The translations under genes and the position numbers were made by a program. From Chrysoperla carnea (lineage: Eukaryota; Arthropoda; Insecta; Neuroptera; Chrysopidae), in assembly GCF_905475395.1 (NCBI RefSeq), contig NC_058342.1, positions 27,190,640 to 27,254,639 of the forward strand: 64,000 bases of DNA. The letters are read 5' to 3'. Under the pieces are notes generated by a model that was not told where the DNA came from, did no database searches, and saw only the letters and a program-made list of their open reading frames with translations. Below are positions 8,091 through 63,583 of this stretch, in pieces (the first letter of the stretch is position 1; the number at the start of each line of letters is the position of its first letter).

Positions 8091-8103
8091 TTATCTTTTT
8101 AAT

Positions 8104-8405
8104 AATAATGGGGGGTTTAACCTCCGTTTTTTGTGACGCATGCCTAAACACAGAGGCCACCCACATGATTACTTGTTAGTCTTTATTTATTCCATTACAA
8201 ACATATTTACAATTACATTTTTGATATGGGTGGAGTCGGTTATTTCGTTCTTATCCAAGTGACGACAATGTGATCAATTCTGCACTCCCATTAATTATAA
8301 ATTGTTCACACTGCCGCTGCCTGGATTCGAACCCGCAACCTAAGTCTAAATAGTCCAACGTTCTAAGATTAGCATCTTAGATCGCTCGGCCATTTAGGCT
8401 CTTTC
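8104..8405 (-). mobile_element. tRNA-Leu/Ser-like SINE, full copy with target duplication
   Basis: Flanked by an exact 13-bp duplication, TTATCTTTTTAAT, at 8091-8103 and 8406-8418. Read on the minus strand, a tRNA-like head (A box GGCCGAGCGATCTAAGATG, B box GGTTCGAATCC) is followed by a body of about 190 bp and an ATT-repeat tail. The body contains ACCGACTCCACCCATATC and TGGGTGGCCTCTG. Head layout with a long variable arm resembles type II tRNAs (Leu or Ser). Relatives are at 35,002-35,298 and 41,564-41,817. Confidence 0.88.
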
Positions 8406-35001: not shown

Positions 35002-35298
35002 ATAATAATGGGGTTTAATCTCCGTTTCTCTGACATATACGCCTATAAAAGAGGCCACCCACATCATTATTTGTTAATCTTTATTTATTTAACTACAAAA
35101 ATATTTACAATTACATTTTGATGTGGGTGGAGTCGGTTACTTCGTTCTTATTCAAGCGACGACAATGTGATCAATTTTGCACCCCCATTAATTATAAATT
35201 GTTCACACTGCCGCTGCCTGGATTCGAACCCGCAAACTAAGTCTAAATGGACAAACAGTCAAAAGCAAACGCCTTAGACCGCTCGGTCATTTAGGCTC
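35002..35298 (-). mobile_element. tRNA-Leu/Ser-like SINE, full copy with target duplication
   Basis: Flanked by an exact 13-bp duplication, ACATTGTAAACTA, at 34,989-35,001 and 35,299-35,311. On the minus strand the head reads ATGACCGAGCGGTCTAAGGC and later GGTTCGAATCC, followed by the same body as 8104-8405 and an ATT-type tail. The head is better preserved than in the 8 kb copy. Confidence 0.88.
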
Positions 35299-40060: not shown

Positions 40061-41456
40061 GATTAATCGAATATTTTCAAATAAACCCATTATTTCAAAT
40101 TTAAAGATTAGATCCTTCCGAGGAGTACTACTATGAAATCAATTGACCCTTAAATCTCTAAGGATCTGCATGCCGATTTACTCAGATATAAATCTGTCGA
40201 TAGTCTATACTGGATGAGATCGGCTCGCAGTATATGATTACAAGTTGGCGCTCAATAAGTTGAACCAATAGTTTTTATAATAATAGTTTCTATAAAGGAT
40301 TCAATCTTCAAACGATTCAATTGTTCAATAATTCAAACATTCTTATTCTCCTATATTAAGTTGCCACGGAAATCAATCAATAACTATTTTATTATTCAAA
40401 TTAAGGTGAGAATTTCTGTGGGCTGTATTATGCATTTTGATAAAATATATCCCCTTCAGGACCTACAATCATTACCTAGATTTATTGCAGGCTGAAGGGG
40501 ATATATTTTAACAAAATGAATACCTATTTTAATAATGGTCTATCCAAGAGTTAATGGCCTGGAGGATGCATATTGAATAGGGATGTTGACTAAATTTTTG
40601 TTTAATCACTTCAGATGAAGACTTCTTACTGGACGGGCAGAAAAATGAAGTTGATTTTGGAAAATATTTAGAAGTTTAAAATTTCTAATTAAACAAAGAG
40701 GAAGATATAGTTTAGTGACGTCATTGCACGGTATCACCATAGAGATTACATATAAAACTTTGCTTTGCTAAAAGGAGATGGTCATAAATCTTTGATTGCT
40801 TATAACTTCTTCGTTTTTTAATCAGTTTTAGTTTCATTTTGAAATTTTGTTATGTTATCGTGCCAAGTTTTAAAATTTTATAGGTATTATTACAAATTCG
40901 ATATCAGGCAACTACCGTCTTCAGTCAAGCGTGAGAAAAACTGTTCAATATGCGTAATGAGTAAAAAATAAACGTGATGTCTGAATTCGTACACTGTGGA
41001 TAATGAAAATTATAGAGCCAAAATACTTGGTATAGTAGCTACTACACTACCTACCATAATAATATCTAACTTATAAGTTTGTTACACATTTACATATATA
41101 AGTATTATGTGTGCATGTCTACAATAACAATATACAAAATATGTATACAAGAGTTAAATGTGTTATAATAGTCATGCTTATGATTTTTATAGCATTTAAA
41201 ATCTTTATGTATGCTAAAATATAAAAGCTTTGCTCAAATGAAATCAAAACTTTACAATTGTAAAAAAAAATAAAAAAAGTTTTAAAAGATTTTCTTTACT
41301 TCCCTGCGCCAACACCAAAATACATACTCTCTAAAAACTCCAAATTTAAAAAAATTCAACTACTATTATGAATAAAAATTGTATTTAAGAAATTCATTTT
41401 AAGGGGCCTCAAGGTTTGACATCAATTTTTTTTGGCTTCTTATTTAGGTACAAACA
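40061..41456. other. Intergenic stretch with one strong hairpin
   Basis: TAAAATATATCCCCTTCAG at 40,441-40,459 has an exact complement at 40,491-40,509, enclosing 31 bp. Otherwise AT-rich with no gene. Confidence 0.5.
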
Positions 41457-41471
41457 AGATAACTTTTACAA

Positions 41472-41817
41472 CAATACAGCATCGTTGGTTCAGTGGTAGA
41501 ATGCTCGCCTGCCACGCGGGCGGCCCGGGTTCGATTCCCGGACGATGCATATTATTTTATTAAGATTATTTAGATTTAGGTTGCGTTTTCGAATCCAGGT
41601 AGCGGCAGTGTGAACAATTATGATTAATGAGGGCGGTAGAATTGATCACATTGTCGTCGCTTGGATAAGAACGAAGTAACCGACTCCACCCACATCAAAA
41701 TGTAATTGAAAATATGTTTGTAATTAAATAAATAAAGATTAACAAATGATGATGTGGGTGGCCTCTGTTATAGGCGTATATGTCAGAGAAACGCAGGCTA
41801 AACGCCATTATTATATT
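41472..41817 (+). mobile_element. Chimeric retrocopy: pre-tRNA-Gly joined to a SINE body
   Basis: An exact 15-bp duplication, AGATAACTTTTACAA, lies at 41,457-41,471 and 41,818-41,832. Between the copies are, in order: a 7-nt leader, the tRNA-Gly gene, a short trailer with TTTT, and from about 41,564 a SINE body. The body matches the 8 kb and 35 kb SINEs (GAATCCAGGTAGCGGCAGTG, ACCGACTCCACCCACATC, TGGGTGGCCTCTG) and ends in CCATTATTAT. The SINE's own tRNA-like head is missing 5' of its B box region. The leader length and U-tail position fit a polymerase III pre-tRNA, so template switching from SINE RNA to pre-tRNA-Gly during reverse transcription is the simplest reading. Confidence 0.8.
41479..41549 (+). 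tRNA. tRNA-Gly (anticodon GCC)
   Basis: 71 nt and complete cloverleaf. Acceptor stem GCATCGT pairs fully with ACGATGC, discriminator A. Anticodon GCC at 41,511-41,513 in a CTGCCAC loop with a five-pair stem. A box TGGTTCAGTGGTAGAATG and B box GGTTCGATTCC are canonical. A TTTT terminator lies at 41,555-41,558. Compared with the usual animal tRNA-Gly-GCC, the last acceptor pair is T-A instead of G-C, with both sides changed, so pairing is kept. The gene sits inside a target-site duplication shared with a SINE body, so it may be a retro-copied gene. It looks transcribable, but function is unproven. Confidence 0.95.
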
Positions 41818-41832
41818 AGATAACTTTTACAA

Positions 41833-42081: not shown

Positions 42082-42297
42082 AAATGCATGGCGATTATTC
42101 TAATGCTGGTATGGTATATGACATATTTAGAATACTATTGCGTTATTTACAATACTATGGCGTTATTTACAATACATTTTGGAGTTATTTACAATACTGC
42201 CATTGTAAATAACGCTATAGTATTATACATAACGCCATTGTGTGTGGCAAATAACGCCATATACTAATACCAGCATTGTAATAAACGCCATGCATTT
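42082..42297. mobile_element. Palindromic element built of GCGTTATTTACAATACTAT units
   Basis: Bounded by AAATGCATGGCG at 42,082-42,093 and its exact complement at 42,286-42,297; pairing continues inward through TAATGCTGGTAT. Inside, GCGTTATTTACAATACTATG-like units are repeated about three times in direct orientation and about three times inverted. Non-coding, 216 bp. Confidence 0.7.
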
Positions 42298-63404: not shown

Positions 63405-63583
63405 ATGGTCTATTCAATTATTTTTGATGTAATATGATACATACAGGCGTAAACTAAATATTGACAAATATCTTGTCTAGTCATCTTAATTAAGGACAAT
63501 TGAAAAATGTACACTCGAACCAGGACTCGAACCCGGACTTCTTGGATTCATGTCAAGTGCCCTACCAATTAGGCTATTCGAGT
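63405..63583 (-). repeat. tRNA-like SINE, second family, best copy
   Basis: The head at 63,513-63,583 (minus strand) folds with a full 7-bp acceptor stem (ACTCGAA with TTCGAGT), a D arm, and a T arm with B box GGTTCGAGTCC. The anticodon loop (CATGAAT) lacks the universal U33 and the stem has a mismatch, so it is not a working tRNA. It is followed by TTTTTCAATTGTCCTTAATT and a body to about 63,405 shared with 56,690-56,830. Confidence 0.6.

Follow-up and report, generated by a model that had tools for sequence, protein, structure and literature searches.

A tRNA-Gly(GCC) gene and a 5'-truncated SINE lie as one unit inside a 15-nt direct repeat, and their joint insertion in one event is well supported. 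The most probable route, to which we assign a probability of about 0.85, is that SINE RNA was copied by target-primed reverse transcription, that the enzyme switched template to a read-through pre-tRNA-Gly and that both went in as a single joint insertion. The unit lies in a 64-kb stretch of DNA (C6:27190640-27254639), hereafter the window, which was searched together with the assembly (559 Mb, 337 contigs). The unit and its borders consist of the following features, in window coordinates:

41444..41456, plus strand: remaining left part of an old target repeat, 10/13 to the repeat consensus
41457..41471, plus strand: left copy of the 15-nt target-site duplication AGATAACTTTTACAA, present at most once per paralogous repeat copy
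41472..41478, plus strand: CAATACA, 7-nt pre-tRNA leader or diverged end of a 22-nt duplication
41479..41549, plus strand: tRNA-Gly(GCC), 71/71 identical to 23/36 other gene contexts
41550..41571, plus strand: tRNA-Gly gene trailer with TTTT at 41555-41558, donor-type likeness up to the second T run
41568..41571, plus strand: ATTT overlap of tRNA trailer and SINE, the junction
41568..41817, plus strand: body of the SINE with its ATT-rich tail, truncated at about base 50-51 of a Leu-like head
41677..41697, plus strand: left arm of an inverted repeat of the SINE body (partner 41750-41770)
41750..41770, plus strand: right arm of the same inverted repeat (partner 41677-41697)
41818..41832, plus strand: right copy of the target-site duplication AGATAACTTTTACAA
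41833..42064, plus strand: right part of the old dispersed repeat hosting the insertion

Two copies of AGATAACTTTTACAA, and only two, were present within the window when both strands were checked, and this pair was the sole direct repeat of at least 12 nt picked up between 41400 and 41900. Among 19,882 pairs of 40-mers drawn at random with this spacing, 20 had at least 15 nt in common. At the SINE's own borders, a short gapped likeness (ATTAAGAT / ATTAGAT) was seen by eye and was rejected as a duplication belonging to the SINE because the likeness is too weak. An earlier note, made from the window alone, had placed tRNA-Gly and SINE within one target-site duplication, and this is borne out by the exact 15-nt repeat outside both parts together with a paralogous empty site. 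The unit thus has the make-up of a chimeric retrocopy: a single target-site duplication outside both parts, a 5' part that is a same-orientation copy of a small RNA with source genes elsewhere, and a 3' portion that is a 5'-truncated retroelement with its tail beside the duplication.

The repeat can be extended to 22 nt with two mismatches (91%), ending directly before the first tRNA base. CAATACA may therefore be a leader following a 15-nt duplication or part of a slightly decayed 22-nt duplication. By eye, it agrees with the right flank at 5/7 positions and with one donor-type leader at 5/7, and since the SINE is 3.6% off its consensus, a 15-nt duplication plus leader and a decayed 22-nt duplication both fit. 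In a related fusion, L136, the outer repeat lies about 7 nt before the tRNA-like part, a spacing that depends on the chosen start of that part; by analogy, this would lean towards the leader reading. Of the 7-nt leader start proposed in the earlier note, it stands that bases 41472-41478 precede the tRNA, while these bases could also belong to the 22-nt duplication.

The search with the right flank led to an old dispersed repeat, which was then used as an empty-site test. One repeat copy, L099, crosses the duplication site without any insert. With L099 as query, 20 further stretches were obtained, and the 21 aligned rows are unbroken matches of 101-314 bases and thus an unfair sample for insert-bearing copies. 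Their consensus at the site is TTATATAAAAACA-AGATAACTTTTGCAATAACACG. Comparing the 21-row consensus TTATATAAAAACAAGATAACTTTTGCAATAACACGTT with the window minus the insert (TTAGGTACAAACAAGATAACTTTTACAATAACACATT) gave a local score of 122, versus 42 for the best of 200 shuffles. The last 13 bases of the left flank agree with the consensus at 10/13 positions (0.23% by chance); the left flank without the 15-mer scored 19, with no alignment beyond chance (slightly longer shuffles average 24). At the site itself, the 15-mer is partly or wholly missing from L115 and L122, L124 diverges from the consensus, and L121 carries a short insert of about 30 bases nearby. No tRNA-Gly was found in the 21 rows, and the only SINE hit was a stretch of 21 nt in L115, outside the site. 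Judged from these alignments, it is well supported that the rows would represent the ancestral arrangement, in which the 15-mer occurs once and the tRNA is absent, and hence a paralogous empty site; the empty-site paralogs are about 67-85% alike and are not the orthologous locus. Loose repeats of a GCGTTATTTACAATAC-like unit were also seen by eye farther out in the right flank, at window positions 42140-42290.

The tRNA part is identical at 71/71 positions to 23 of 36 other tRNA-Gly contexts, which derive from the best 40 of 117 tRNA-Gly candidates and form a sample biased to likeness. Its T7:A66 acceptor pair is the usual tRNA-Gly form in this genome. Given this and the 71/71 identities, the proposal that the T-A pair marks selection or an odd source gene is not supported. 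The 22-nt trailer, which includes TATTATTTTATTAAG, agrees with three genes on C6 at 20, 19 and 19 of 22 positions and with the remaining 33 contexts at 5-16 of 22; random window 22-mers reached at least 18/22 in 1.5e-5 of trials, with the window's own site counted. These three donor-type genes (C6:29339733, 29341987 and 29607613) are 2.1-2.4 Mb from the insertion. A pattern made of tRNA end and trailer, with four free positions set where the three C6 genes and the window differ, has four genomic matches with all fixed bases, namely the window and the three C6 genes. Allowing up to three mismatches yielded 123 matches versus 66 for a reversed control.

The gene with the best trailer (20/22) has a tRNA with anticodon ACC that matches at only 68/71 positions, which excludes this gene as donor in its present form; the tRNAs of the two genes with a 19/22 trailer match at 71/71. 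The earlier note had called for a gene with the same acceptor pair, leader and trailer. The T-A pair turned out to be common and the trailer was recovered at 19-20/22, with the exact window trailer absent from all 36 tRNA-Gly gene contexts compared. On trailer likeness, the donor would be of the type represented by the C6 genes near 29.34 and 29.61 Mb, an assignment that is well supported for the type and does not extend to an exact source gene. The surrounding region C6:29338000-29344800 (L071) holds seven tRNA-Gly genes in both orientations, one with anticodon ACC, laid out as two runs of three with a period of about 152 bp plus one gene apart. On C3 and C4, intact or near-intact tRNA-Gly(GCC) genes are found within a dispersed repeat (L013, L023, L026, L027 and L030-L035), whose copies have up to about 1.1 kb in common at 81-94% identity. 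This is a second, different route by which tRNA-Gly genes spread.

Donor-type trailers contain a first TTTT and then a second run of five T, and the likeness of the window trailer ends at the third T of this second run. ATTT is common to the trailer end and the SINE start (ATTTAGA). The junction had been placed directly after the first TTTT and has to be moved, as the SINE starts about 9-13 bases later, at the second T run. The acceptor RNA would then have ended at the second T run, and the cDNA would have paired with the acceptor end via ATTT. Such an overlap is no general rule, since a fungal study describes, in the excerpts available, junctions without overlap (PMC2104539). Folding of the SINE placed the break inside a predicted hairpin.

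Normal copies of this SINE start with GAGCCTAAATGGCCGAGCGGTCTAAGG, a head that by reading appears Leu-like, and end in ATT repeats. The genome-wide search gave 2699 first-look candidates, and the exact core CGAATCCAGGNAGCGGCAGTGTG occurs 952 times. For comparison, 42 copies were used, namely the 40 places closest to the window copy, a choice biased to close, young relatives, and two full-length copies in the window:

about 35002-35298, minus strand: full-length SINE copy with Leu-like head and its own duplication
about 8101-8401, minus strand: full-length SINE copy with Leu-like head and its own duplication

Border repeats of 8-17 nt were present in 29/42 copies and less than that in 13/42, so the 15-nt duplication, being within the family's range, counts for SINE-type insertion. 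The chimeric SINE differs from the 42-copy consensus by 9/247 substitutions (3.6%), each common to at most 2/42 copies, while the two full-length window copies are 7% and 11% off. Loss of the SINE's own head, as first proposed from the window, is supported by the break at about base 50-51. Five of the 42 comparison copies likewise have a truncated or odd head. Eight of the 40 copies closest to the window copy are located on C6, which makes up 7% of the genome (binomial 0.005); this sample is ranked by likeness, and the excess may reflect a local subfamily.

The joint duplication, the lost head and the donor-type trailer support the template switch from SINE RNA to pre-tRNA-Gly that the earlier note had suggested. 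A LINE-type reverse transcriptase would have nicked the old repeat and begun copying SINE RNA at the ATT-rich tail. With some 50 bases at the 5' end of the SINE still uncopied, reverse transcription would have halted within the head. The enzyme would then have continued on the 3' end of a read-through pre-tRNA-Gly whose gene resembled those at C6:29.34 and 29.61 Mb. Copying of this pre-tRNA would have reached its 5' end or stopped close to it, and repair would have left a target-site duplication of 15 nt, possibly 22 nt, flanking the entire unit. We infer both the order of these steps and the enzyme. An RNA-level chimera, in which pre-tRNA was ligated to broken SINE RNA and then copied once, yields the same product, and RNA ligation is named beside template switching for sense chimeras in the available part of a 2026 L1 study (PMC13174262). 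The ATTT overlap is expected for a switch and not required by ligation, which is a weak point given that it concerns four bases in A+T-rich DNA; overall, we judge ligation improbable.

One point against a template switch is that the donor-type genes reside on the insertion's own chromosome. With C6 making up 7% of the genome, this is a mild coincidence if the RNA acted in trans. This shared chromosome would suit a DNA-level origin, with a full-length SINE sitting between the duplications and its head later replaced by tRNA-Gly via gene conversion or rearrangement, and such events are a named alternative for PittSINE in the excerpts of that study (PMC5729268). Here, the left border falls at the pre-tRNA 5' limit directly beside the duplication, no upstream donor flank was carried along, and the Leu-like head and tRNA-Gly have by eye little sequence in common, so that we give a DNA-level origin the least credence of all. 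The left flank had no match in the tRNA clusters (four candidates, all scored) and is unique except for three weak matches. A 9-nt stretch, CTTTTACAA, common to the duplication and two cluster leaders was considered as leader homology indicating DNA duplication and was discarded; random pieces equal it in 17% of trials (0.17, not significant), and the presence of the motif is explained by the old repeat. The chimera could also descend from a parent locus, where a tRNA-Gly gene had received a truncated SINE downstream and from which a read-through transcript was retroposed into the window. The trailer does continue past the first TTTT, meaning that read-through occurs or that DNA was copied. 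A parent locus was absent from the 37 tRNA-Gly loci searched, where the sole SINE is more than 2 kb from the genes (L072); 40 of the 117 tRNA-Gly candidates were scored. In addition, two junction patterns matched the window only, narrow patterns that missed the related fusions L126, L128 and L136. We consider descent from a parent locus very unlikely.

The template-switch product is probably a dead end as a SINE, with no sign of a founded family. It had been proposed to be a new tRNA-headed SINE, and a genome search for other junctions of tRNA-Gly and SINE body had been called for; these searches, all of limited reach, returned the window copy only. No second tRNA-Gly/SINE fusion was found among the best 40 of 2699 SINE candidates or among the best 40 of 117 tRNA-Gly candidates. 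Relaxed patterns for a tRNA B box before a SINE B box, which needed exact motifs and fixed spacing, matched the window only, and a strict two-B-box pattern was rejected as it had no match and excluded the window itself. Junction patterns of this kind would miss decayed copies or other spacings, so absence is not proven. A new family would also be expected to have several copies with the same junction, which were not seen within these limited searches, and to lack a Pol III terminator separating head from body. The window copy has two: TTTT is kept at 41555-41558, and a second one at 41586-41589 was made by two G-to-T changes.

The tRNA-Gly gene has an intact cloverleaf, an internal promoter and a terminator behind it, and its mature tRNA is identical to the product of many other genes. 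It is a possible rather than an established working tRNA gene. At 3.6% decay, a figure that also includes source-SINE and copying differences, 2.6 changes would be expected in the 71 tRNA bases and none were observed. The difference between 0/71 in the tRNA and 9/247 in the SINE (P 0.07, Fisher 0.10) is suggestive of selection having kept the tRNA since insertion, and not enough to establish it. A tRNA-Ser(TGA) gene is also present in the window (63512-63583, minus strand), with no convincing duplication beside it (longest common stretch 8 nt).

Three further places join this SINE, in sense, to the T-rich or A/T-rich end of a tRNA-like unit. They speak for the template switch and bring the fusions of SINE copies with a tRNA or tRNA-like unit that were encountered in the genome to four, with the window included:

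C3:36486635-36486731, minus strand: L126, tRNA-like and SINE fusion with an imperfect direct repeat outside
C3:90085820-90085900, minus strand: L128, tRNA-like and SINE fusion with a repeat that is more than half T
C1:128165350-128165890, plus strand: L136, tRNA-like and SINE fusion with a 12-nt repeat outside

A body-side pattern matched 32 places, of which 31 were judged by eye to be spacer variants of the SINE, each with a B box of its own; the remaining match, L125, was read as a junction with another tRNA-like element. Its head is tRNA-like by eye only, with no tRNA called by Rfam even at E 10 or by ARAGORN. In L125/L126, the tRNA-like stretch is followed by GTAAAATTTTTTG and then by the SINE from GAATCC. 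An imperfect 16-nt repeat lies outside (14/16, 1.1% by chance), and its right copy may be partly SINE. The tRNA-like part belongs to a dispersed family with 119 candidates. Among the 18 loci examined from the best 40 that were scored, a SINE stands directly behind the tRNA-like part in sense orientation in three (L126, L128 and L136). L136 consists of 7 nt, the tRNA-like part, GTAAAAATTTAAA, a full-length SINE and its tail, enclosed by a 12-nt repeat (TAATTTGGATTT, 0.07% by chance) outside both parts; the run before the SINE is AAAAATTTAAA and not a clean T run. In L128, GTAAAATTTTTGA precedes a full-length SINE, and an adjoining 12-nt repeat (TTTTTTTGACAA, more than half T) was found outside by eye. 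The automatic longest match for L128, 13 nt of AAAAATTCTCAAT, was rejected as it does not adjoin the element. By eye, the SINE parts of L128 and L136 are of different types. In 14/18 tRNA-like loci there was no SINE within the few hundred bases examined, and seven of those 14 (L132-L135, L139, L142 and L143) represent one longer dispersed repeat, with nearly identical sequences and a tRNA-like unit that ends in a T run of its own. Two different tRNA-like units seem to follow each other in L137. In L140 (C1:4132680-4133230), an antisense 5' piece of the SINE with an internal gap stands directly before the tRNA-like unit, head to head, an arrangement that recalls what twin priming might produce.

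With the window and the three related junctions, the frequency and rules of such jumps become countable within one genome. One can go further and propose that SINE retroposition repeatedly captures oligo-U Pol III ends and that it planted here a complete, still working tRNA gene, which would make it a route of tRNA gene dispersal; we regard this as speculative and on balance doubtful. If the template-switch reading is true, the acceptor can be a whole pre-tRNA and the junction lies at a T run; such an event can also leave an intact tRNA gene even where the product is a failure as a SINE.

The mechanism has already been proposed for PittSINE and for U6 chimeras, as excerpts of the respective papers indicate, and the window holds an unusually clear example of it. 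A tRNA-Gly/SINE fusion of such form was not encountered in titles and abstract openings among the open-licence papers listed by the searches, and the available parts of PMC8010984 and PMC3747384 contain nothing on template switching. The following comparisons likewise draw on portions of the cited papers. In tailless tRNA retropseudogenes, unprocessed tRNAs served as templates of a LINE enzyme (PMC5322556); these are 3'-truncated tRNAs on their own, whereas the window tRNA is entire and fused to a SINE. Template-switch chimeras of U6 and other snRNAs, reported for L1, L2 and RTE, likewise have a small RNA 5', a truncated retroelement 3' and one duplication outside (PMC4476161). In the window, in contrast to U6/L1 chimeras, the acceptor is a pre-tRNA and the first template a SINE. 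The 21 mammalian tRNA/L1 chimeras also combine tRNA and retroelement in a single insertion, with duplications of 9-19 bp in the eight cases checked; they typically contain half tRNAs and are predominantly antisense, whereas the window has a whole tRNA with trailer in sense orientation (PMC13174262). HaSE3 of Helicoverpa armigera is, like the SINE studied here, an insect SINE for which head acquisition by template switching has been proposed (PMC3272025), but it is a SINE family with a 5S rRNA head, while the window has one copy with tRNA-Gly. PittSINE of suboscine birds joins a tRNA-Asp head to a TguSINE1/CR1 tail, and a change of template, from SINE RNA to a tRNA in the course of target-primed reverse transcription, was proposed for it, with gene conversion or rearrangement as an untestable alternative; the proposed mechanism and the product within one duplication are the same as here (PMC5729268). 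Its founder was inferred from the finished family, whereas the window holds a single founding-type copy, with no family found, that still displays its pre-tRNA trailer, donor-type genes and a paralogous empty site. Head exchange in PittSINE and HaSE3 was thus deduced from families, while here a single event is legible base by base, from the first template and the acceptor type to the junction, the duplication and the paralogous empty site.
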